DNA from: Sideroxydans sp.
GTDB lineage: Bacteria; Pseudomonadota; Gammaproteobacteria; Burkholderiales; Gallionellaceae
Assembly (NCBI GenBank): GCA_024636935.1
Contig: JAGXGC010000026.1
Coordinates: forward strand, 1 to 64,000
Direction: 5' to 3'
Length of the DNA stretch: 64,000 bases
Below, piece by piece: positions 29,234 through 60,751 of the stretch. The position numbers were made by a program, and so were the translations under genes. Positions within the stretch are counted from its first letter, which is position 1. The number at the start of each line of letters is the position of its first letter. The notes under the pieces are model-generated. The model did no database searches. It saw only the letters and a program-made list of their open reading frames with translations, and was not told the origin of the DNA.

Positions 29234-32200
29234 TCAATCCGGCTTCCATTCCACCACCAGTTTTTCGAACTCCACCAGCGGCACTGGGCGGCTGAACAGA
29301 TACCCTTGGAACTTGCCACAACCGCGCGCCACCAGCGGCGCTATCTGCGCACTCTCCTCCACGCCTTCCGCGATGACGTCGAAGCCGAAGTTCTGCGCCA
29401 TTCCCGAGATGGTTTGCACCATCATGGCATCGCCCGGATCGGTAAGGATGTCACGCACGAATGATTGATCGATCTTAAGCAGATCGATAGGCAGGCGCTT
29501 GATATATTGCAGCGAAGAATAGCCCGTGCCGAAATCATCCATCGAGAAGCGCACACCGATCTCTTTCAGTGCGGTCATCTTACGCGTTGCTTCATCCACA
29601 TCTTCCAGTACCAGATTCTCTGTCAATTCCAATTCCAGATTGCGGGGATCGGCACCAGTCTGTTCCAAAATAGCTTTCACATCGCGCACGAAATCGGGCT
29701 GATGGAACTGCACCGGGCTGATATTCACCGCCAGATGCATACGCCCCAAGACGGGATGGTCTTCCCATATCTTGAGTTGGCTGCAGGCACTTTCCAGCAC
29801 CCAATGTCCGATGGGCAGGATCAATTTTGTCTGCTCGGCCATGGGGATGAACTGGGCTGGCGACACCATACCCAGTTCCGCACTACGCCAGCGCAACAAA
29901 ACCTCGGCACCCAGCAGCGATTTGGCTTCGTCGGTCTGCAATTGAAAGAACAACTCCAGTTCCCCCTTGGGCAAGGCCTGCCGCAATGCGTTCTCCAGCA
30001 AGGTGCGCGATTCCAACACCGCTTGCATAGACGCCTCGAAGAAGGTCACCTTGTTGCGTCCGCTTTCTTTGGACTGATACATGGCCAAGTCGGCACGCTT
30101 CAGCAATTCCTCGCTATTCACTTCGCCGCCCCGGAACAATACGACACCGATGCTGGGCGTGCTGCGATGCAATACGCTCTCCAACTGATAGGGCTGCGAC
30201 AGCGCCTCACGTATCTTCTCGGCGATACGTCCCGCTTGGGCGACCGCCTCTTCCTTGAACACGTTCATGCCCTCTAGCAACACCACGAACTCATCGCCTC
30301 CAAAACGAGAAAGGGTATCGGTATCCCGCACGCAGGTACCAAGACGGCGGGCAACTTCCACCAGCAACCTGTCGCCATATTCATGTCCTTTGGTATCGTT
30401 CAGCACTTTGAAGTGATCCAGATCGAGGAACATCAGCGCACCATATTGATCGTTACGCGCACTCTGACTCAAAGCGCGTTGCAAATGGTCTTGCAACAAA
30501 CGACGATTAGGCAAGGACGTGAGCGGATCGTAGAAGGCGAGATTCCTGATTTCTTCTTCGGCTTTTTTTCGTTCAGTAATATCCACGAATACCGCGACGA
30601 AATGGGTCACCTCATCCATGTGCTTCACGGCAGTGATGGTCAGCCACTTGGGATAGATCTCACCGCTCTTGCGTCGGTCCCAAACCTCACCCGACCAACG
30701 CCCCTCTTCGATGACGGACGCCCACATCTCCTCATAGAAATCCTTGCCATGGCGCCCCGAAGCCAGCATGCGCGGATTCTTGCCTAACACCTCTTCCTGT
30801 GAATAGCCGGTCGTTACCTCGAAGGCATGGTTCACCTTGATGATATTCGCATCACGATCTGTTACAAGAATCGCCTCCTGCGTCTCGAACGCCACGGAAG
30901 CGATACGTCCCTGCTCTGACAGGATCTCGCGCTCGGTCACATTCTGTACGGTACCGATAGAGCGTATCGGCTTACCGGATTCATCGAAGGTAGAAGAGCA
31001 ACGTTCTTCCACCCACTTGATACGGCCATCCGGCATCTGTAGACGATGCACGATCTGATAGGGTTTCTTGTCCGCTAGAGAATCGGTGTATGCCTGATTC
31101 ACCTTATCGCGATCTTCCGGATGGATACCCGCCAGAAAGGCTTCGTAGGATGCGCGAAACTGGGTTTTGTCGACCTCGAATATCTCAAATATCTGGTCAG
31201 ACCACACCAGCTTGCCGGATAACAGATCCAGTTCCCAGCTCCCAAAGTGGCCGACTTTCTGCGCTTCCTCCAGCAACTTGCGCTCGCGTTCCAGCGCGGC
31301 GGTTGCAATGACCCGATCCGTGATGTCGCGTACAAAGACAAAGAAACGATCCTCTTCTTTCCAGTAAGTGGTCGACACTTCCACCTCGATCTCACTACCG
31401 TCTTTGCAACGATGGCGGGAATCGAACACATCCCACCCCCGCTCAACTATCACTTTCATGTGCGCCTTCACATCTTCCGGCGACTGTTCCTTTGCTTCCA
31501 GCTGCGGGATGCACATCTCCAGCAATTCCTCGCGGGAATAGCCGGACATATTGCAGTAAGACTGGTTCACATCGAGCAAGCAGCCCTGCCCATCCAATAA
31601 CCAGTAGCCGTCAATATTGGTGTCCAACACATGTTGCAGATCGCTGACCGCCCGATTGCGTAGGCTAACGTTCTCGCTCACGCGCCGTGCCATATGATCG
31701 AAACGTTTGCCCAGCTCGGACAGTTCATCCTCACCGCGCAATCCCGTCTGTGTATCGAAGTCACCCGCTGCGAAACGATCTGCTGCCGCCACCAGCACAC
31801 CGACGCGACGACTGACCAATCGATGCAGGATATAAGCGATGACGATCGAAGCCAGCAAGGTGATCAGACCGAACACCAGCGCCTGCTCCAGAGAATCCCG
31901 ACGCGCGACCTGCACTTGTTCGCTGATATCCGCCTCGACATACAGCACGCCCATCTGCTTCTCCAGTCCACCATGGCGATAAGCCACGATCAAAGGGAAG
32001 TACCCTTGCAGTATTGTGGGCTGTTGCGTATTGAATGACAGCCGACTCTTTTCGCCCTGTCTGACCAGTCGCGCATCAGCTTCAGAATAGAGGGTGTGGC
32101 TGGCAACCGACTCGCCTTTCCACCTAAAGGAACTCGACAAAATCACACGGTGCTGACTATCTGCCAGCACCAGCGCGGAGATACCCGGGCGCATGGCCAC

Positions 32201-33408: not shown

Positions 33409-33506
33409 CCCCCCCCCTATAACTCACCGAGACTCTGCTGGCCTCTCACTGTGACATAGCATTCAAATAAACACTTCAACCATAGTCAATTATACGGACA
33501 ATTCTT

Positions 33507-36500
33507 TCAGTCTGATTTCCAATCCTTGATCAGTCGCTCCAATTCATCCAAGGGGATAGGCTTGCTGAAGAAATAGCCCTGATAAGCCATGCAAGCATTG
33601 TGCTTCAGAAAGCTCAGTTGGGCCTCAGTCTCCACACCCTCGGCGATGACGTCGTGCCTGAAGTTCTTCGCCATGTCGATGATGCTCTGCACCATGCCCG
33701 CATCACTCTGATCCACGGTGATATCACGCACGAAACTCCGATCGATCTTGAGCTGATCCAGTGGCAGTTTCTTCAGATAGGAAAGCGAAGAATAACCGGT
33801 TCCAAAATCGTCCAGCGACAGCTGCACGCCGAGATCCTTCAGCGCCTGCATCTTTTTCACCACGTCCGTGATGTCATTCAGAACCACGCCTTCGGTCAAT
33901 TCCAGCTTCAAGCGATTTGGCGCCACGCCATGACGTTGCAGAATGGAAGCCAGATGGGCCACGAAATCATGCGCAGCGAACTGATGCGCGCTGACGTTGA
34001 CCGCCATCGTCAAACCAGACTTGAGCGGATCTACTGACCACAGTGCCAACTGGGCACAAGCATGATGTAGCACCCAATCTCCCAACTCCACGATCAGCAT
34101 ACTCTCCTCGGCCACAGGGATGAACTTTGCAGGCGGAATCATGCCGCGCGTCGGATGCTGCCAACGCAAAAGCGCCTCGACACCCACCAGCTTGCGCTCG
34201 TTGTCCACCTGCACCTGATAGTGCAACTGTAGTTCGTCGTTCTCGATGGCACGACGCAGATCGTTCTCCAGCATGGCACGCGTATCCAGATCATGCTGCA
34301 AGCTCGGGTCGTAGAATCGAACAGTGTTTCGACCGGCGTTCTTCGCCTGATACATCGCCACATCCGCATGCTTGATCAGGTCATCCTGTGACTCAACTCC
34401 GTCGTGGAACAGCTCCACGCCGATACTGGGTGAGGTGTAATGCTCATGCTCTTTTAGCTGATAAGGGTGCGCCAGAGACTCCCTGATCTTTTCAGCCACC
34501 AGCCCAGCCTTGTGCGATGCCTCTTCCCGATGAGCGCCTATCCCCTCCAACACCACCACAAACTCATCGCCTCCCAGCCTAGCTACCGTATCGACTTCAC
34601 GCACGCATTGTCTGATACGTTCTGCCACCTCGATCAACAACAGATCACCATAATCATGGCCAAGCGTATCGTTCAACACTTTGAAACGATCTAGATCGAT
34701 GAACAGCAATGCACCAAAATCACCATTCCGCACTGAGGCGGCCATCGCATTCTGTATACGATCCATGAACAGACGACGATTGGGTAACTGCGTCAGCGCA
34801 TCGTAGAACGCCAAGCCGCGTATCTCTTCCTCGTTGCGCTTGCGCTCGGTGATGTCGCTGAAGAGAGCGACATAGTTGACCGTACGCCCTGCCTCATCCT
34901 TAACGGCAGTGATGGTCATCCACTTGGGATAAATCTCGCCGCTCTTGCGCCGGTCCCATATCTCGCCCGCCCAAGAGCCTTTCTCAAGCAGTTGCTGCCA
35001 CATCTCTTTATAGAACTCTTGGTCATGACGCCCTGAACTCATGATGCGAGGATTTAGCCCCTGCACTTCCCATGATTTAAAGCCGGTGATCTCGGTAAAG
35101 GCATTGTTGACACGAACGATGTTGGATTTTTCATCGGTGATCATGATCGCATCCTGTGTTTCAAAGGCCACCGCAGCCACGCGCAATTGTTCCTCGTATA
35201 ACTTGCGCGCCGTGATGTCATGCATAATTCCGACGGAGCGGACCGGTTTACCAGTCTCGTCATAGCTCGTGGTGCAATGCTCCCGCAACCACTTGATTCG
35301 ACCGTCAGGGAACACGAGTCGGTGCTCGATATCGTATGGGGAGCCTTCCTGCAGAGAACGTTGATAGGCTTCATCCAACTTTTCTCTGTCCTGCGGATGA
35401 ATAGCATTCAGGAACATCTCATAACTAGCTGTCACCTCCTCCTTGTCCAGCTCGAAGATATGGTAGGCCTCGTCCGACCAGATCAGCTCTCCGCTCAGCA
35501 AATCGAACTCCCAGCTCCCCAGCTTGCCTAGCCGCTGCGCCTCGTTCAGCGTCTGCTGCTGCTGAACGAGGCGCAGAGCATTCTGCTTACGCTCAGAGAT
35601 GTCGCGACAAAACACGAAGAAGTGTCCATCGCTGAAAGTCGTCGATATCTCGATATCGATCACGATTCCATCCTTGCGCCTGTGTTTCGTCTCGAACTGG
35701 TCATATCCGTTCGCAATGATCTTTTCGAGATGTGCCCCAACATCCTCAGGCTGCTCACTGGCTTCCAATTGACTGATATGCATCGCAACCAGTTCCTGCA
35801 CGGAATAGCCGGACATTTGCGCATAAGATTCATTCGCTTCCTGCAGAAAACCTTCGGCATTCGTCATCCAGTAACCGTCCAGTGCCGTCTCAATCACCTG
35901 ATGGTGGCGCAACAGCACTTCCTGCGTGCGCTTACGCTCGGTGATGTCGCGGCTGGATGCATACAGATAAACCTCTCCGTCTATCTCTACCCCCGTTGCA
36001 CACACTTCAACTTGGATCAACTGCCCATCCTTGTGCCGGTGCAGAGTTTCGAAGGTGGCGCTTTTTCCAACCATCTCTTGAAAGCGCTGTGTGAGCTGAT
36101 CCGAGGTAAATTGATCGTCCCAATCACGCACATTGAGGCGCATCGCCTCTTCTTGCGTATATCCAAGCATGCGACAGAACGCATCGTTCACTTCCAGCAC
36201 ATTGCCTTCGATGTCCATCACATGGATGCCTTCCATCGAATTCATTTTCAGCGCCTGATTGCGGTGCAACTGGGCTTCGATCAATTGCAGTTGCTCACGC
36301 CGACTGCCGACATCTAGACCCAGCCCGATCAGTACCGGTTCATCGTCGCGCAACACGCGCCGACCTGTGAATTGATAGGGAATTCGCTTGCCATCTACTG
36401 TGCACAAAGAGGCGTCAACTGTCACATCACCGTGCTCGAAAACTGCACCGATACTTTTAGCTATCAAAGCCTTGTCATCACCTTCGAACAGATCAAGCGG

Positions 36501-50320: not shown

Positions 50321-53300
50321 CTAGAAGTCTCCCCTGAACGCAGTGATAAAGCTGTAGCAGATGCGCGCATCCTCGGCGAGTTCGAGGAAGCTGATTGTTC
50401 TGCGGTTCCACTGGCTGAAGTCGGGCACCCCTGCAATACTGGACATATCGTGAAACTGCATATTCCAGTCCAGGAAGATGCGCTGCTGCTCGTGGCCTTC
50501 AATGACGATGTGCAAATTCTTGTGCCGTCTATCCGCTTGGATGTGCTCCATCAGTTTCAGCACATTCTCGCGGCTCCCCTCCAGCATCTGCATGAAGCAA
50601 CCATCCTGATACAGCATGCAACCGGTGATGCCCGCAGCTTGATTGTTCTGTTGCGACACCTTCATCACCTGTGCCAAACCGTCTTCGTCCATCTCATCGC
50701 CCGCCTGACTGACATACAACAGGAAATATAATGACGAATCGGCGCCCTTGCTTTCACTACTCAGTTCCTTGTCCACGGCATCGATGAAAGACTGCTCATC
50801 AAGCGGTCGATAGCAAAGGTAACCTTGGATGAAATCGCAACCGTTCGAACGCAACTCCAGTAACTGCGCCTCGTTCTCCACGCCCTCGGCCACCAGCTTC
50901 AGGCCCAACGAACGTCCCAGCCCGATGATGCCGCGGATGATGGTGCGGCTATCTGCCTGCTTGTCCACGCCGTCAACAAAAGCCTTGTCGATCTTCAGCA
51001 CGCTGACCGGCATGCGCGTCAATTGCGCCAGCGATGAATAGCCAGTACCGAAGTCATCCACCGCCACACGCAAGCCCAGTTCAGCCAATTCGCGCAGCAC
51101 ATGCAGATTGCTCTCCACATCTGCCATTAGCGATGTCTCGGTGATTTCGATCAGCAGGCGGGTCGGATCAGCACCGGTCTCGCGCAATATCTCGGCAAAA
51201 TCCTGCGCCAGTGTTGCTTCATTCAACTGGCGCGTGGAAACATTCACCGACACATAAGACGGCGCCTGCGCACCCCAGCGCTGGCGCCACTTGACCTCGG
51301 CCAAACAGCCTTGGCGGAACACCCACAGACCGATATCCACAATTGGGCCTGTCATCTCGGCGATGGGAATGAACACAGCGGGCGATATCTCGCCGCCCGA
51401 CGGATGCCAGCGCAGCAGCAATTCGGCACCAACGATGCGACGATTTTCCGCTGAGACTATGGGCTGGAAACGGCAGGAGAATTCGTTACGCGACAATGCT
51501 TGTCGCAGCCCCTCGGTCACCGACAAACGCTGGCGCACTTTCTCTTCCAGACTGTCGCTGAAAAAATGCCAGCCGTCGCGCCCCTTCTGCTTTGCCTCAT
51601 ACATGGCGGTATCGGCAGAACGCAGCAGATCATCGGCGGAATGCGTGCTGCCATGTCCCACTGCGATACCGATACTGGCAGTGACGAACAGCGGCGTACC
51701 GTCGAAGTCGACAGGTTGGCGCATGGCCTCGTTGATGCGCTCGGCCAGCGCAGAGATGGAAGTGGGTTGTTCCAGTTGTTCGCACAACACCACGAACTCG
51801 TCGCCCGCCAGACGCGCCACCGTATCGCCCGGACGCACCTGCTCGATCAATCGCGCGGACACCACTTTGAGCAAGGCATCACCCGCCTGATGCCCGTGGG
51901 TATCGTTCACCAGCTTGAATCCATCCAGATCCATGAACAACAAAGCGATACTCAATCCCTGCCGTTGCGAACGCTGCAGAGCATTCACCAGCCGTTCGCG
52001 GATCAATGCCCGATTGGGCAATTGCGTCAACACATCATGCGTCGCGCGCCACAGCATCTCATCCTCGGCGCGCTTGCGTTCGGAGATGTCGCGCATGGTG
52101 ACGACCAACATCCATTCGTCGTCATTCTTGAATTTGGCGATAGCTGCTTCCAGAGGGAAGAACGAACCGTCTTTGCGATAACCGGATATCTCGCCGCGCG
52201 ACGACATGCGCCGCTCCATCTCCTCGCCCTCGACAAATCCCCGCACCATGTCGACGTGCCTTTGGCGTATATGCGGCGGCAGCAGCAGGTGTATCGACAT
52301 GCCGACCATCTCAGTCAAGGTATAACCGAACAGCCCACAGGCACTGGGATTGGCTTCGGCGATGATGCCCTGATGGTTGGTGGCGATGACAGCCATGTCG
52401 GCGATGGACAATATCCGCTGTGCCGTGTTGAGTCTTTGCATGGCGACACTTGCTTCCGCCGCTATCCGCTCCAGCACCTGCGGCGAAGGCGGCGATTCGT
52501 GCAACTTAGCCACCTTGGCCTGCTCGCGATAGCGCTCAGGAATCTGCGGTGCGATGCGCCCGAACGATTCAACGATACTGAACGTACCGTCTGCGTTGCA
52601 GCGCGAAAGATAAGTATTCACGCTGGCATGGTGGGTATCAGCATCCATCACCACTTCACCCTGGGGCGAAGTCACGCGGATGTTTTCCAGCGCATCCACC
52701 ACTGCCTCCGGCTCGCTCGTGCCCGCAACCTCAACGGCCTTGGCAAAAGCCTTCACACACAGATAGGTCCCCTCGCCGAAATTGGTGAGAATGCCGTTGC
52801 CGTTCGGCCAGATACCGGTGATGTCGGGCAGTTGCGCCAAACGTTCAAGGTAGGCGCGGTTCTCCGGCGTCGCCACCGACATGAAGTAGCTGTTACTGGA
52901 ATAAAAACCCTCGCGCACCTGCGCCGGCAAGTGGCTGACCATCATCTCGTCGTAATGCCCCATCACCACTGCCATGCGCTTCTTCAACCCCATCGCGGTG
53001 AATTGCGTGAGCAGATGCACTTGGTCATCACCCGCAAAATAGGGAACGAAGACATCTGCACCGGAGCGGGCGACCTGCTCGAGTAAAGCATCGATCTCTT
53101 GCAGGCTCGCGCCTATGGGGAGGTACTCCTCGCCTAGGATGTCTCCACCTAGCGACAACAACGAACGCTTAGCCGCATCGATAGAACCGCGCGGCCATTC
53201 GTAGTTATTGCCTGCAAAGAACATCTTGAGACCGTGGTGTTTGGCCATGTAGGGGATCATCTTGTCGATCTGCTGGTTGGGCAGCGCGGCGAAGTGGAAG

Positions 53301-53656
53301 AAGTAGCGTCCGGAGATGCTGCCTTCGTAGAACGAGAAATTCAGGTAGGGAATGCGCTTCGGCTCGGCCACCTGTGCGGCGACAGCAATACGCGAGTTGG
53401 ACAACAGATTGCCGATGATGGCATCGCAATGATGCCGCTCGACCAAGCGCAAGGCGGCAGGCACAGCGGTATCTGGCAGGCTACCATCATCCTCGATGAT
53501 CAGCTCCAGCGGTCGCCCCAGCAAGCCACCGGCCCCATTGATCTCGCTGCAAGCGATCCTGGCGGCATTGCATATCTCGGTACCATACAGCCCGACCAAG
53601 CCTGTCAACGGCGGCATCAGACCCAAACGGATAGATTTCAATGTGTTATCACTCAT
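50321..53656 (-). CDS. PBP-fold-PAS-GGDEF-EAL-BLUF fusion protein
   Basis: 1111 residues from the ATG at 53656. Residues 8-385 match the type I periplasmic-binding fold used by branched-chain amino acid, urea and amide sensors (IRLGLMPPLTGLVGLYG, EINGAGGLLGRPLELIIEDDG, LPDITGIWPNGNGI), but there is no signal peptide and no membrane helix, so it should be cytoplasmic like AmiC. A PAS domain lies at about 410-525. The GGDEF domain (530-695) reads AGDEF at 617-621, with an inhibition site R608-D611. The EAL domain (705-955) keeps Glu745, Asn805, Glu837, Asp867-Asp868, Lys888 and Glu924. Residues 974-1070 are a BLUF domain with Tyr981, Asn1005, Gln1023, Trp1064 and Met1066 at the flavin-switch positions. 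It should join a small-molecule input and blue light to c-di-GMP turnover. Confidence 0.9.
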   Translation of the reverse strand: MSDNTLKSIRLGLMPPLTGLVGLYGTEICNAARIACSEINGAGGLLGRPLELIIEDDGSLPDTAVPAALRLVERHHCDAIIGNLLSNSRIAVAAQVAEPKRIPYLNFSFYEGSISGRYFFHFAALPNQQIDKMIPYMAKHHGLKMFFAGNNYEWPRGSIDAAKRSLLSLGGDILGEEYLPIGASLQEIDALLEQVARSGADVFVPYFAGDDQVHLLTQFTAMGLKKRMAVVMGHYDEMMVSHLPAQVREGFYSSNSYFMSVATPENRAYLERLAQLPDITGIWPNGNGILTNFGEGTYLCVKAFAKAVEVAGTSEPEAVVDALENIRVTSPQGEVVMDADTHHASVNTYLSRCNADGTFSIVESFGRIAPQIPERYREQAKVAKLHESPPSPQVLERIAAEASVAMQRLNTAQRILSIADMAVIATNHQGIIAEANPSACGLFGYTLTEMVGMSIHLLLPPHIRQRHVDMVRGFVEGEEMERRMSSRGEISGYRKDGSFFPLEAAIAKFKNDDEWMLVVTMRDISERKRAEDEMLWRATHDVLTQLPNRALIRERLVNALQRSQRQGLSIALLFMDLDGFKLVNDTHGHQAGDALLKVVSARLIEQVRPGDTVARLAGDEFVVLCEQLEQPTSISALAERINEAMRQPVDFDGTPLFVTASIGIAVGHGSTHSADDLLRSADTAMYEAKQKGRDGWHFFSDSLEEKVRQRLSVTEGLRQALSRNEFSCRFQPIVSAENRRIVGAELLLRWHPSGGEISPAVFIPIAEMTGPIVDIGLWVFRQGCLAEVKWRQRWGAQAPSYVSVNVSTRQLNEATLAQDFAEILRETGADPTRLLIEITETSLMADVESNLHVLRELAELGLRVAVDDFGTGYSSLAQLTRMPVSVLKIDKAFVDGVDKQADSRTIIRGIIGLGRSLGLKLVAEGVENEAQLLELRSNGCDFIQGYLCYRPLDEQSFIDAVDKELSSESKGADSSLYFLLYVSQAGDEMDEDGLAQVMKVSQQNNQAAGITGCMLYQDGCFMQMLEGSRENVLKLMEHIQADRRHKNLHIVIEGHEQQRIFLDWNMQFHDMSSIAGVPDFSQWNRRTISFLELAEDARICYSFITAFRGDF

Positions 53657-53753
53657 AAACAACGTTGCTGTCTAAATCTCCCTAACACAAACACTATGTA
53701 CATTACCGTATCCGCAACAAAATTGCGCCCTGTGTTTGCACGGCATCTGTCCG

Positions 53754-53759
53754 TATAAT
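53754..53759 (+). promoter_or_regulatory. Possible -10 element of nrdJ
   Basis: TATAAT 60 bases before the nrdJ start. A partial NrdR-box-like ACACTATGTACATT lies near 53691-53704, but no second box is seen, and I find no cobalamin riboswitch. Confidence 0.3.
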
Positions 53760-53819
53760 TACCATCCAGTTCACCCCTTCCCCTCCTCCATGGAAGGGAA
53801 GCAATCAGAAAGTCCAGAA

Positions 53820-56800
53820 ATGACGCAAGAGATCAGCACCGAAGTCCTTCTTGAGAAATACGCGGAAGCCGACGAGAACACGGTGCAAGACGTGCGCCGA
53901 CGCGTGGCTCGCGGCTTGGCGCAAGCAGAAAACCCCGAACAACGCGCGCAATGGGAAGAGACCTTCTTCCAAGCGCAAGAGAACGGCTTCGTTCCTGCCG
54001 GCCGCATCAACTCAGCCGCCGGATTGAAGATCCAAGCCACGCTCATCAACTGCTTCGTGCAGCCGGTGGGCGATGCCATCTCCGGTTTCAGCGACGGGCG
54101 CCCCGGCATCTACGACGCACTGCAACAAGCTGCCGAGACCATGCGCCGCGGTGGCGGTGTGGGTTATGACTTCTCCACCATCCGTCCCGAAGGTGCGCAC
54201 GTGAAAGGCACCAACTCGCGCGCCAGCGGCCCCATCTCCTATATGCGTGTGTTCGACCGCTCCTGCGAGACAGTGGAATCCGCCGGTGCACGACGCGGTG
54301 CGCAGATGGGCGTGCTGCGCTGCGACCACCCCGACATCGAAAAATTCATCAGCGCCAAGGACAAGGGCGATCTGCGCAACTTCAACATCTCAGTCGGCGT
54401 GACCGATGCGCTGATGCAAGCGGTAGAGAACGACGAAGAGTTCGAACTGGTACATATCGCCAAACCCTCAGATGCTCTTATGGAAGCCGGCGCAACGCAG
54501 CGCGCCGATGGCAAGTGGATATACCGAAAGGTACGTGCTACCGACCTGTGGAAACAGATCATCGAGAGCACCTACGACCATGCCGAACCGGGCGTGCTGT
54601 TCATCGACCTGATGAACCGCGACAACAATCTGTCGTATTGCGAAGTGATCGAGGCTACGAACCCTTGCGTCACTGCTGACACCTGGGTGATGACAGGTGA
54701 CGGTGCTCGACAGGTTCATGAACTGATCGGCCTGTCGTTCACCGCGATCGTGGATGGCAAACCCTACGCCACCGAATCGCAAGGATTCTTCTTCACCGGC
54801 AAAAAACCAGTGCTGCGTCTGAGTACCTCAGAAGGTCATACCTTGCGCCTCACCGCCGACCATCAAGTGCTACGCGTCTCCAGATTGACGCGCTACGTAC
54901 GCGAAACAGAATGGGTTAAAGCGGGCGAGCTAAAACCTGATGACCAGATCGTATTGAACGATCATCGCGCCCTGAATTCATGGGAAGGCTCGCACACTGA
55001 AAACGAGGGCTACTTGATCGGCCTGCTCATCGGCGACGGCACACTCAAGAACGACAAGGCCGTATTGAGCGTCTGGGATGCACGTGCACTCAAAACTGCC
55101 AACGGCACAGACATACAGCCCTCAGACGGTATCGCCAGCGTGATGCTGGCGGCAGAACAGGCAGCGCGCGCGCTGCCGCACCGTGCAGACTTCAAAGGCT
55201 GGCAAAAGCCGGTCGATGGTCGCGGCGAGTTCAGACTGGCGACCGGTTCATTGCGTTCATTGGCGCTGGAGCTGGGACTGACACCCGGCAACAAACGCTT
55301 CACTCCTGCAATGGAAAATGCATCGTCCGATTTCTATCGCGGCGTACTGCGCGGCATGTTCGATGCGGATGGTTCAGTGCAAGGTTCGCAGGAAAAAGGT
55401 ATCAGCGTGCGCCTGACACAGGTCGATCTCCGTAATCTGCAAGCTACACAGCGCATGTTGCAACGTCTCGGGATCATTGCCACCATCTATCAGAATCGCC
55501 GCCCGGCGGGCATGAAGATATTGCCTGACGGCAAAGGCAGCAGCAAAGAATATGCATGTCAGGCATTGCACGAACTCATCATCAGCGGCGACAACCTTGC
55601 TCGCTACGCCGAACGCATCGGCTTTTCAGACAGCGACAAGATGAATAAGCTCAATGCATCTCTGGCGTGTTATCGGCGCAAGCCGAATGCAGAACGCTTC
55701 ATCGCCACTGTTGCCGCTCTGGAAGAGGATGGCGTGGAAGATGTGTACGACGTGACCGTGGCCGAGGTGCATGCCTTCGATGCCAATGGCCTGTATGTTC
55801 ACAACTGCGCTGAGCAACCCCTGCCCCCTTACGGCTGCTGCTGCCTCGGCTCCATCGACCTGACGCGCATGGTGAAGAACCCGTTCTCCAACCATGCAGG
55901 CTTCGACCACGAGCCGTTCAAACAACTGGTGCGCACCTCGATCCGCATGTTGGACAACGTGCTGGACGTGACCGCGTGGCCACTACCGGAACAACAGGAA
56001 GAAGCGCGCAGCAAGCGCCGCGTCGGTCTCGGCTACACCGGACTGGGCGATGCGCTGATGATGCTGGGCCTGCGTTATGACACCGATGAGGCGCGCAATT
56101 TCGCTGCCGACATCACACGCATCATGCGCGACGAAGCCTATGCCGCATCGGTAGAGTTAGCCCAAGAACGCGGGGCGTTCCCGCTGCTGGAAGCCGACAA
56201 ATATCTGTCCGCTCCGCGCTTCGCTTCGCGCCTGCCGGACGAACTCAAGGACAAGATTCGCAAGCACGGCCTACGCAACAGCCACCTGCTTTCCATCGCA
56301 CCGACAGGCACCATCTCGCTGGCCTTCGCCGACAATGCCTCGAACGGTATCGAGCCCCCCTTCTCCTGGTTCTACACGCGCAAGAAGCGCATGCCGGACG
56401 GCACGACCAAGGACTATCAGGTGGAAGACCACGCTTGGCGCTTGTACAAAAAACTGGGCGGCGACATAAACAAGCTACCGGAATCGTTCGTCACCGCGCT
56501 GGAGATATCTGCCATCGACCATATGAAGATGGTCGCTGCCGTTGCGCCCTACATCGACACATCGATCAGCAAGACGGTGAACGTGCCCGCCGACTATCCG
56601 TATGAGGATTTCAAGCACCTGTACACGGAAGCATGGAAAGCAGGCCTGAAAGGTCTGGCGACCTACCGCCCAAACAGCGTGCTGGGCTCGGTGCTTTCGG
56701 TCACGCCAGAGAAGAAGGAAGAAGAACAACCACAAGATTTCGTGTTCGATCAGGACCGACGCATCGTGCTGGAGACCACACCCAAGCCCGCGCTAGCCTC

Positions 56801-57785
56801 ATTGCGCTGGCCGGGCCGACCCGATCTGCCAGCGGGTAGCGAAGGTTGGGTATCGCAAGTGGTGAAACATCCGCTGGGCAGTTTCGTGGCATTCGTGTCG
56901 CACACCACCAATGGTTGCAACCATCCCTTCGAAGTCTGGGTGAACGGTTCCGAACAGCCGCGCGGTCTGGGCGCACTGGCGAAGTCCTTGTCGATGGACA
57001 TGCGCACACGCGATCCGGTGTGGATACGCATGAAGCTGGAGATGCTGATGAAGTCGGCAGGTGACGATGGCTTCGACATGCCGATGCCGCCGGACGGCGA
57101 AGTGAAACGTATGCCGAGCTTGGTAGCCGCATTCGCCTACCTGCTGAAATACCGTATCGAACAACTTGGCGCGTTGGAGATCTGCGAAGACATCACCACA
57201 CCGATGATGGATGCGCTGTTTGCCAAAAAGGAACCCAAGACTGGCGTGGACGGCACCATGAGCTGGACGGTGGACATCTCCAACGCGGGCAGCGGCGACG
57301 ACTTCGTGCTGGGTCTGAAAGAACTGGTGCTGCCGGACGGCCAGCGTCGCCCCTACTCCATGTGGTTGTCAGGCGTTTATCCGCGCGCACTGGATGGGCT
57401 GTGCAAAGTATTGAGTCTGGACATGCGCGTGATCGATCCGGCTTGGATCGGCATGAAGTTGCGCAAGCTGCTCAACTTCGGCGAACCGCTGGGCGACTTC
57501 ATGGCGCGCGTGCCGGGCGGCGCGAAGATGGAGAGCTATCCCTCCACCGTGTCCTATGTGGCGCAACTCATCATCCACCGCTTCGCCATGCTCGGTATCC
57601 TCGACGAACATGGCTATCCGGTGCAGCAGATGGGCGTGTTGGAGATTCCCGAAGGCCAGATCAAACCCACCACCGTCAAACCGATGACCGGCAAGCACTG
57701 CAAGGAATGCGGTAATGCCACGTTGATCAAAAAGGACGGTTGCGAGTTCTGCACCAGTTGCGGCGCGATCGGTGCCTGCGGTTGA
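53820..57785 (+). CDS. nrdJ: Class II (adenosylcobalamin-dependent) ribonucleotide reductase with intein
   Basis: 1321 residues from the ATG at 53820 ([14 protein letters not shown]), with AGAAAG before it; 941 after removal of a 380-residue intein. It reduces ribonucleotides to deoxyribonucleotides with a B12-generated radical and works with or without O2. N-terminal part: [37 protein letters not shown]. The intein splits EATNP and [12 protein letters not shown], the catalytic loop with the active-site residues. The C-terminal half has [13 protein letters not shown], two TSCPD-type repeats and a zinc ribbon (CKECGN, CTSCG) as in other betaproteobacterial NrdJ. A partner NrdB is not required. 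Confidence 0.95.
54666..55805 (+). mobile_element. Intein with LAGLIDADG homing endonuclease in nrdJ
   Basis: 380 codons (residues 283-662 of the precursor). Block A starts with Cys ([15 protein letters not shown]), block B has TADH (intein residues 63-66), blocks C and E are LAGLIDADG helices at 115-127 ([11 protein letters not shown]) and 223-238 ([16 protein letters not shown]) with Asp at the catalytic places, and blocks F/G end [22 protein letters not shown]-type with His379 and Asn380 before extein Cys. All splice residues are present, so it should be active. Confidence 0.93.
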
Positions 57786-57937: not shown

Positions 57938-60751
57938 ATGAGCCATTCCATCCCCTCTGAGTCCACAAATTATTCAGGCATCGCTCGTGCGCTGACTTGG
58001 CGCTACTCGATTGCCCTGACGCTGGTGGCGACGCTGTCTACAGCGGCTTGGATAAGCCTTGATCTGGTTATCACGGAACAGCAGAGCACGGCAGCCGTGG
58101 TCAACGTCAGCGGACGCCAGCGCATGCTGAGCCAGCGCACCGCGTTGTTCTCCAACCTGCTGGCAGATGCGCGCAGGAACGAGCGAGCGGCCTTCCGTAC
58201 CAAGTTGCAGGAAGCGGTAGATCTGATGGACGTCTCACATCAAGGGCTTACCTTGGGCAACGAGGCCATGGGGCTGCCCGGCAGCATGTCTCCAGCCATG
58301 CGCGCCATGTACTACGATGGCCCTGATGCGCTCGACACTCAGGTAAAAACCTATATACGAACCGTGCGCGACCTGTTGCAACTGGACGACAGTGCATTGC
58401 GGCACGACCACCCCTTGTTGCAGTACATCACCGCTACGGCACCTGGACCGCTGGTCACCTCACTCGATCGCATGGTGCTCCAATATCAGCTGGAGGGAGA
58501 GGCTTCGGTCGCCAGCCTGCAGAAGGCAGAAAGTGCCTTCTGGTTGATAACTTTGCTGCTGCTGGCACTGGAAGCCGCACTGATATTCCATCCCTTCGTA
58601 CGACACGTGCGCACCATCATCAGGAAGCTGCAAAGTGTGAGCGAAGAACTCCGCTCGCATCGCGAGAACTTGGAACACTTGGTCAGGCAGCGCACCGCCG
58701 ACCTGCAACAACGCAGCAACGAACTGACGGAGAGCGAACACCGCTACCGCACACTGGTGGAACATTCGCCACTGTGCATCCACGAGCTGGATATGGCGGG
58801 TCGCCTGCTATCCATGAACTTGGCAGGTCTATCCATGATGGGGCTGGACAAGGAAAGTGAGATAAGCGGCAAGCCTTATCTGGATGCCGTCAGCGCAAAA
58901 GAATTCGATCGCATCCAGATGCTCATGCAGCAGGCCTTCGATGGCCAAGCCGCCCATTTCGAATTCACCGCTGCCGGCGAGAGCGCGCGCACTTTCAAGT
59001 CCTGCTTCATCCCCATCCGCGATAGCGACGGCAATGTGTGCAAACTCATGGGTCTGACGGAAGACATCACCGACCGCAAGCGATTCGAGGACGAGCTGCG
59101 CATCAATGCCAGCGTGTTCGACAAGAGCCAAGAGGCCATCCTGATCAGCGATGCGCGCAACGACATCATTGACGTCAACCCTGCCTTCCTGCAGATCACC
59201 GGTTACAGCCGTGAAGAGGTACTGGGCAAGAATCCGAGATTGCTCAGTTCAGGGCGCCACCCTCCGGATTTCTACGCCGCGATGTGGCAGTCCATCAAGA
59301 CCGAAAAAGGCTGGCGCGGCGAGATATGGAATCGGCGCAAGTCGGGCGATATCTATGCTGAGCTGCTTTCCATCTCCGCTATCTGCGACGAAGAAGACAG
59401 GGTGCAACGCTACGTCGGCGTATTCTCCGACATCAGCCATCTGAAGGAACACGAAGCAGAACTGAGCCGCATCGCGCACTACGACGCACTGACCGGCATC
59501 CCCAACCGTGTGTTGCTGGCCGACCGCATGAAACAAGCTATCGCGCAGACCGCACGCGAGCAGAACATGGTTGCGGTGTGCTATCTAGACCTCGACGGTT
59601 TCAAAGCCATCAACGACTCACTGGGGCACGAAGCGGGCGACCAAGTGCTGGTGGAGATCGCTGCGCGTATCAACCGCACCCTGCGCGGTGGCGATACCGT
59701 GTCCCGTCTGGGCGGCGACGAATTCGTGGTGGTGCTGCTTGGACTGGAGAGGGGTGAAGAATGCGTGACGACGCTGGAACGCCTGCTGCTAGCCATAGCA
59801 GAACCTATGCATATCAAGGATCAAGCGCTGACACTGAGCACCAGCATCGGCGTCAGCATCTATCCGCTGGACGACGAAGATCCGGACACACTCCTTCGCC
59901 ATGCCGACCAAGCTATGTACGTGGCCAAACAATCTGGTAAGAACCGCTTTCACATCTACGACCCCGCTCTGGATTTGCGCACCCGTAGCAAGCAAGCGTT
60001 CCTCAGCACCATCCGCGATGCGCTGGATGCACAGCAGTTCGAGCTTCACTACCAGCCAAAGATTGACCTGCACACGCGGCAAATGTCCGGTGTCGAGGCG
60101 CTGATACGCTGGCACCATCCGCAACGCGGCCTGCTACTCCCGGGTGAGTTCCTGCGCCCCATCGAAAATAGCGAGCTCGATATCAAGATCGGTGACTGGG
60201 TGATTGCCAGCGCGCTGACACAGCTCGAGCACTGGCGACAGGACGGCCTAGATATCGAGGTCAGCATCAACATCTCGGCCCACCATCTGGAATCACGCGG
60301 TTTCGCAGACAAACTCAGGCAGCAACTGGCGCGCCACCCCGACCTGCCGCAGGGCAGGCTGCAACTCGAGGTGCTGGAGACAACGGCGTTGAACGATATA
60401 GCCATCGTGCGAGATGTGATCGAAGCCTGCCGCATGTTCGGTGTGCGTTTCGCGCTGGACGATTTCGGTACGGGTTATTCGTCTTTGTCCTACCTGAGCG
60501 GACTGCCGGTGGATGTACTGAAGATCGACCAATCCTTCGTGCGAGATATGCTGGATGACAAGGGTGACATGGCGATCGTGCAAGGTATCATCGGCTTGGC
60601 TCATGCTTTCGGCCAACAGATAGTCGCCGAGGGCATAGAGACTGCTGCGCACTATCAGGCTCTGCTCGACATGGGCTGCAGCCACGGTCAGGGCTATCTG
60701 ATCGCACGGCCAATGCCGGCCGATGAATTGCGCAATTGGCATTTCGACTGA
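57938..60751 (+). CDS. PilJ-type sensor with PAS-GGDEF-EAL
   Basis: 937 residues. A membrane helix (about 24-45) and the PilJ/NarX-type start [20 protein letters not shown] are followed by a periplasmic four-helix region to about 198, a second helix (about 200-218) and a coiled coil (225-262). Two PAS domains (about 265-375, 385-500) lead to GGDEF (510-665) and EAL (675-930). GGDEF is intact with an RGGD inhibition site; EAL is VEALIRW with [17 protein letters not shown] and EGIE. Either activity is possible. The HDOD gene follows in the same direction. Confidence 0.9.

Follow-up and report, generated by a model that had tools for sequence, protein, structure and literature searches.

We analysed a 64,000-nucleotide stretch of a Sideroxydans sp. 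genome (contig JAGXGC010000026.1, positions 1 to 64,000; hereafter the window), centring on the gene at 50321-53656 on the minus strand, whose 1111-residue product joins a type I periplasmic-binding-protein (PBP) fold to PAS, GGDEF, EAL and BLUF domains. The protein is probably a soluble, BldP-family phosphodiesterase that is activated by blue light, hydrolyses cyclic di-GMP (c-di-GMP) and takes a second, cytosolic ligand input. This reading is based on its domain architecture, intact sites, orthology to a Magnetococcus marinus protein, purifying selection and a conserved pocket.

A single intact gene encodes five domains

The gene runs in one frame from an ATG at 53656 to a stop codon at 50321-50323, with no internal stops and with a TTG two codons upstream as an alternative start. 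A Pfam search placed five domains along the protein, each above its curated cut-off, in the order Peripla_BP_6 (242.5 bits; E value 1.3e-71 for the whole protein), PAS_9 (2.4e-13), GGDEF (2.9e-46), EAL (1.3e-68) and BLUF (3.4e-28). Among the 25 of 40 NCBIfam matches listed, no protein-specific model reached its cut-off, and the general GGDEF model passed. A model of the full protein (mean predicted local distance difference test score, pLDDT, 86.7; predicted template modelling score 0.66) agrees with the domain boundaries, and the two predicted helices behind the BLUF domain may, by position, be the counterpart of BLUF cap helices.

No signal peptide or membrane helix was seen by hydropathy, no dedicated signal-peptide program being used. 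The 19-residue Kyte-Doolittle mean peaks at 1.49 overall and at 1.11 within the first 60 residues. Since the profile shows no hydrophobic stretch like those of signal peptides or membrane anchors, the PBP-fold domain is most likely cytosolic. The export signal of periplasmic solute-binding proteins of ABC transporters is likewise missing, as the N-terminus is not hydrophobic and is fused to cytosolic domains. Three of 88 relatives (L100, L117 and L160) contain an internal stretch with a mean of 1.93-1.96, never at the N-terminus; the window protein has no such stretch, and we rejected membrane anchoring for it.

Seven other Gallionellaceae genomes carry a single frame through all five domains. 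Against four of these orthologues, the ratio of non-synonymous to synonymous substitution rates (dN/dS) lies between 0.10 and 0.14 over the gene as a whole and between 0.12 and 0.22 in the BLUF domain, and each domain is under purifying selection, with the tail after the BLUF domain reaching 0.52 in one comparison. In one further relative (G091; locus L088 is the same gene by coordinates), the gene is divided over two frames. Given the seven single-frame relatives and the low dN/dS, we rejected a frameshift artefact. A first-pass annotation, made from the letters alone, had proposed these five modules, noted the missing signal peptide and named a frameshift split among the findings that would count against it; the domain matches, the hydropathy and the uninterrupted frame all come down on its side.

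Probable kinship with the light-activated phosphodiesterase BldP

The window protein carries an EAL domain followed at the C-terminus by a BLUF domain (residues 717-951 and 976-1067), an order that we take to be the defining feature of the BldP type. BldP was reportedly described by Ryu et al. in 2017 as having C-terminal EAL-BLUF modules and an oxygen-dependent light activation, and the M. marinus fragment EB1, presumably the EAL-BLUF part without the N-terminal domains, is said to be activated more than 30-fold by light.

The genome of another organism, M. marinus MC-1 (G691), encodes an orthologue whose five domains follow one another as in the window protein. The identity between the two across residues 7-1074 is 57.8%, and the orthologue too has an AGDEF loop. 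A sodium-channel fragment from that genome is identical at 218 of 218 residues to PDB 5hvx, which we take to be the M. marinus MC-1 channel. The genome holds three BLUF frames, of 1122, 168 and 144 amino acids, and only the first can hold an EAL-BLUF unit because the other two are so short.

In a 2022 review, BldP of M. marinus and Allochromatium vinosum is listed as a c-di-GMP phosphodiesterase with a BLUF domain, FAD and a positive response to blue light (PMC8846402, Table 1), and EB1 is given as an optogenetic, light-switched phosphodiesterase construct made from BldP; the light activation of BldP itself is taken from the literature through this review. Since the review lists an M. marinus BldP and the orthologue is the only large BLUF frame in that genome, the published BldP is almost certainly this orthologue, and light activation has then very probably been shown for an orthologue of the window protein. 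The five BLUF residues expected of the type are also present, as detailed below.

BlrP1 of Klebsiella pneumoniae (PDB 3gfx) joins a BLUF domain and an EAL phosphodiesterase as well. In BlrP1, however, the BLUF domain precedes the EAL domain, and PBP, PAS and GGDEF domains are lacking, whereas in the window protein the BLUF domain lies behind the EAL domain and a GGDEF domain is present. The BLUF sequence of the window protein also matches AppA (3.6e-15) more closely than it does BlrP1 (8.1e-7 at best).

Photoreceptor and catalytic residues

Residues were counted in 57 five-domain proteins, comprising the window protein and 56 relatives (loci L162-L165, L222 and L224 left out), and the roles given to the checked positions are those known from the families. 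In the BLUF domain, Y981, N1005, Q1023 and W1064 occur in all 57 proteins and M1066 in 56. Eleven EAL positions (E745, N805, E837, E840, D867, D868, K888, D890, E924, E927 and Q944) are present in every sequence. The flavin domain with its key Tyr, Asn, Gln, Trp and Met in place and the complete-looking phosphodiesterase, both read from the sequence at first pass, are thereby confirmed.

Measured against the GG(D/E)EF pattern of active diguanylate cyclases, the loop here reads AGDEF, with D619 and E620 retained. Position 617 is A in 29, G in 17 and S in 11 of the 57 proteins, and position 618 is G in 50, S in 4 and A in 3. D619, E620 and F621 are fixed, as are N584, D593 and K689, and D576 occurs in 55. 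The RxxD motif, which we take to be the product-inhibition (I) site, keeps its R in 54 and its D in all 57. VCA0965 of Vibrio cholerae is reported to be an AGDEF enzyme that synthesises c-di-GMP. The first-pass annotation had flagged the changed loop; as a sign of inactivity it fails, given the fixed residues 619-621, the A/G/S at 617 and the active VCA0965, and we rejected the conclusion of an inactive cyclase.

What the GGDEF domain contributes allows more than one account. A serious contender, to which we give somewhat less than even weight, is that this domain merely senses GTP and activates the EAL domain, leaving a pure phosphodiesterase that sums GTP, ligand and light. By E value, the middle part is structurally closest to PA0861 (PDB 5xgb, 5xgd with GTP, and 5xge) and to the GGDEF-EAL part of PA0575 with GTP, and PMC3989770 mentions that GTP acts allosterically in GGDEF-EAL systems. 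The systems named there, however, carry degenerate GGDEF domains, and in the present family the conservation of the cyclase residues N584, D593, D619 and E620 goes beyond what GTP binding alone would call for. PA0861 (5xgb), the top match of the full model by E value, shares the PAS-GGDEF-EAL order, but its solved part has no PBP or BLUF domain and does not superpose on the model as one body (template modelling score, TM, 0.45 by target length; root mean square deviation 27.5).

Unlikely, in our view, is a bifunctional switch in which an active GGDEF cyclase is restrained by the I-site, with ligand and light choosing between making and breaking c-di-GMP. It would suit the near-complete conservation of the cyclase residues from D576 to K689, the mostly retained RxxD motif and the activity of the AGDEF loop in VCA0965, but loop positions 617-618 drift while all checked EAL positions are fixed, a contrast that speaks for hydrolysis as the activity under selection.

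The PBP domain and its pocket

The model of the PBP domain (mean pLDDT 90.4) superposes on the urea-binding protein 8tg1 with a TM of 0.92 by target length and 0.85 by query length (26% identity), and on AmiC (PDB 1pea) with 0.91 and 0.84 (24% identity), which places it in the UrtA/AmiC receptor fold. AmiC is cytosolic too. At 24-27% identity the fold is the same as in UrtA and AmiC; the window domain differs in being fused to signalling domains.

Conservation was followed in 71 sequences, the window domain and 70 of the best 80 loci from the scan described below, a set of closest relatives that favours invariance. Mean column identity is 72%, and S86, R89, N106, F107, S108, F109, E111, Y152, E153, W154, H234, D236 and E237 are the same in all 71 across three kinds of output. 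Their assignment as pocket-lining or ligand-touching is assumed from knowledge of AmiC rather than from coordinates. In sequence alignments, S86, Y152 and E237 are shared with AmiC and UrtA, whereas W154 and the H234-Y235-D236 stretch differ: in place of Y152-E-W154, AmiC has Y-I-Y and UrtA has Y-V-F, and where the window protein reads G233-H-Y-D-E237, AmiC reads L-T-T-S-E. Because the pocket is near-invariant and only partly matches AmiC and UrtA, we expect most members to share one conserved ligand, which is probably not urea and not a simple amide either; at a guess, the acidic pair in the pocket might suit a cation. The earlier label of an amide or branched-chain-type domain thus stands for the fold, which is of UrtA/AmiC type, but cannot be transferred to the ligand.

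That the PBP domain is a structural relic without ligand, with light as sole regulator, is improbable: EB1, derived from BldP, does serve as a light-switched phosphodiesterase, and several positions of the pocket are not constant among the most remote members, but the column identity and the thirteen invariant positions argue against it, and relatives that lack BLUF or signal through a histidine kinase still carry the PBP domain.

Distribution, variants and history of the family

BLUF domains occur in 35 of 150 Gallionellaceae genomes. Nine BLUF frames longer than 600 amino acids were listed there; eight, including the one in the window, have the five domains in one frame, and the ninth is the divided G091 gene. 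In G144 and G149 the frame ends after the EAL domain, and in G062, G145 and G090 the same PBP domain (70-73% identity) is joined to a PAS domain and a histidine kinase.

When 84,980 species were searched with the PBP alignment, 145 relatives emerged, the best 80 of which comprise 42 intact PBP-PAS-GGDEF-EAL-BLUF proteins, 16 GGDEF-EAL proteins without a BLUF match, 16 histidine kinases and 6 split, cut or incomplete loci; the domain tally behind these counts took in four loci from an order-level sample, some of them duplicates of others. Domains in the scan loci were assigned with custom profiles built from sequences of this analysis, and Pfam confirmed all five domains in eight of eight chosen proteins. 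Of the 16 BLUF-less frames, two (L125 and L160) end at a contig edge and 14 in a stop codon, and no BLUF remnant was found downstream of these 14 within at most 2500 bases (202 for L086, 761 for L132 and 863 for L098); we rejected assembly artefacts as their explanation, other than for the two cut by the contig end.

The 42 intact proteins include those of Simplicispira psychrophila, Azoarcus, Parazoarcus communis, Methylotuvimicrobium buryatense, Methylomonas, Thiorhodospira sibirica, Ectothiorhodospira magna, Magnetospirillum and Desulfamplus magnetovallimortis, and of bins labelled Nitrospirae and Myxococcota. Overall, the combination was found in Gallionellaceae, Methylococcaceae, Rhodocyclaceae, purple sulfur bacteria, Magnetospirillum, Magnetococcia, Desulfamplus and others. 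In even samples that count the window's own genome, the PBP module turned up, whatever its output, in 7 of the 399 genomes from the order (E value 1e-60) and in 18 of 398 genomes of the phylum (1e-80). Among 116 genomes of the family of G536 (L137, Thiorhodovibrio), there are 13 BLUF frames of at least 850 amino acids, and 12 of 12 examined were five-domain, the PBP domain of L221 being divergent; G561 (866 amino acids), G570 and G572 (589 and 606 amino acids) lie outside the set examined. From the class of G537 (Magnetococcales), 48 genomes held two large BLUF frames, both five-domain. The first-pass annotation knew of no protein with all five modules together; these counts show that the combination is not new, and the window protein very probably belongs to a widespread family that is already known.

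The proteins with PBP fused to PAS and histidine kinase (for example L079 8241-11273 on the plus strand, and L080 7471-11613 and L081 6981-11285 on the minus strand) would form a family of cytosolic ligand-sensing kinases.

In a BLUF tree, the 57 five-domain sequences fall on one side of a branch and 52 other BLUF domains on the other (Shimodaira-Hasegawa approximate likelihood ratio test 94, from a fast tree that was built on few columns and carried a warning of long branches), which suits a single fusion event. A PBP tree of 87 rows omits the long branches L221 and L223 and makes no use of an outgroup root, whose branch was very long. In this tree all 16 histidine kinases group together (support 100/96) and the BLUF label needs eight changes (7-9 across bootstraps, with at least 3 required by well-supported branches). 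Together the trees suggest one fusion followed by several BLUF losses, a direction that unrooted trees leave unproven. The ligand domain, not the light domain, would therefore be the constant part.

A proposed gate with ligand and light as two inputs

In the mechanism we propose, blue light absorbed by the FAD of the C-terminal BLUF domain would alter the EAL domain of a presumably dimeric protein and raise c-di-GMP breakdown, which would favour motility or detachment. The N-terminal, cytosolic UrtA/AmiC-type domain would bind one conserved small molecule and, through the PAS domain and the GGDEF-EAL tandem, tune enzyme activity and the gain of the light response. The possible two-input gate of ligand plus light suggested at first pass fits this anatomy. 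Many of the hosts, to judge by their names, are iron oxidisers, methanotrophs, purple sulfur bacteria or magnetotactic bacteria, which live at redox boundaries; positioning by both light and chemistry would suit such a life.

Several observations weigh against this reading. The BLUF domain is the least conserved of the five, with 56-82% identity among seven orthologues compared with 80-89% for the PBP domain, and 14 GGDEF-EAL relatives have none; on these grounds, light is not the essential input everywhere. The pocket loosens in the wider set of 57 five-domain proteins, where S86 is kept in 53, N106 in 56, S108 in 55, Y152 in 53, H234 in 54 and Y235 in 34 (F in 22); W154, D236 and E237 remain in all 57, including distant purple sulfur members. 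The GGDEF domain may also make c-di-GMP, which would render the net output uncertain. Lastly, clustering of 1929 neighbouring frames yielded no conserved neighbour gene supporting a role. Eight clusters reach at least five loci, two of them sensor-like and six stemming from synteny in one purple sulfur family (some being antisense shadows); they gave no ligand, and we rejected a deduction of the ligand from gene neighbourhood.

If the N-terminal domain is a conserved ligand sensor, a natural BldP-type enzyme would have a second control, one we did not find described in a search that fell short of most subscription papers. In the accessible part of the literature on BLUF with GGDEF-EAL, on BldP and on PBP domains, with PMC8846402, PMC3989770, PMC4053972, PMC4477167, PMC8892541, PMC8506656 and PMC6042787 among the papers covered, we found no mention of a PBP-to-BLUF fusion, a weak negative given that most subscription papers lay outside the search. 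PBP-clan domains in c-di-GMP proteins are stated to be periplasmic, with only SBP_bac_3 studied, in the 2022 review (PMC8846402), and the present domain, if cytosolic as proposed, would be an exception. More tentatively, cytosolic PBP-fold receptors across several phyla might sense one metabolite through a near-fixed pocket and feed differing outputs (light-gated phosphodiesterase, plain GGDEF-EAL and histidine kinase); in the five-domain proteins the ligand would permit c-di-GMP lowering by blue light, a chemical-and-light gate for bacteria of oxygen or redox boundaries. Identifying the ligand would then inform a receptor family seen in bins of several phyla.

Sequence features and genomic surroundings

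Features of the five-domain gene and its downstream neighbour in the window
Feature	Position	Strand	Basis
Whole gene, predicted BldP-family PBP-PAS-GGDEF-EAL-BLUF protein	50321..53656	-	frame and Pfam
Type I PBP fold, Peripla_BP_6, residues 8-357, no signal peptide seen	52586..53635	-	
PBP-PAS linker, low confidence, residues 390-411	52424..52489	-	pLDDT < 50
PAS domain, residues 421-526	52079..52396	-	Pfam
GGDEF domain, residues 538-694	51575..52045	-	Pfam, alignment
RxxD motif, residues 608-611	51824..51835	-	R in 54/57, D in 57/57
AGDEF loop, residues 617-621	51794..51808	-	alignment
EAL phosphodiesterase domain, residues 717-951, all eleven checked residues present	50804..51508	-	
BLUF domain, residues 976-1067, with Y981, N1005, Q1023, W1064 and M1066	50456..50731	-	
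C-terminal tail, residues 1068-1111, two predicted helices	50324..50455	-	model secondary structure
Downstream GGDEF protein, 261 amino acids	49469..50254	-	frame list

The downstream gene for a 261-residue GGDEF protein is possibly co-transcribed with the five-domain gene; in G060 and G016 the orthologue is also followed by a copy of it, 76% identical, which was not found in the other seven of nine relatives. The 2.7-Mb genome (36 contigs) contains 67 places similar to parts of the five-domain protein (E value 0.001), and, apart from the gene itself, the other 66 all fall within the PAS, GGDEF and EAL part (residues 374-983); the genome has one BLUF match. Enzymes of c-di-GMP turnover are abundant for a genome of this size, and further PAS-GGDEF-EAL-like places in the window lie at 59120-60718 (plus strand), 29270-30916 (minus) and 33501-35153 (minus, with an in-frame TGA).

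Six loci of one purple sulfur family (L214, L215, L217, L219, L220 and L221) share a neighbourhood that includes, by inspection, genes resembling a DNA topoisomerase subunit and a polyprenyl synthase, and the PBP-PAS linker is longer in all six.

Adjoining the five-domain gene, at 53736-57785 on the plus strand, is a ribonucleotide reductase gene (NrdJ-like by inspection) with an apparent intein at about residues 312-690. G035 and G016 align to it as two abutting pieces without the intein stretch, and G060 and G095 align through; because its presence varies among close kin, the sequences suggest that the intein is mobile.

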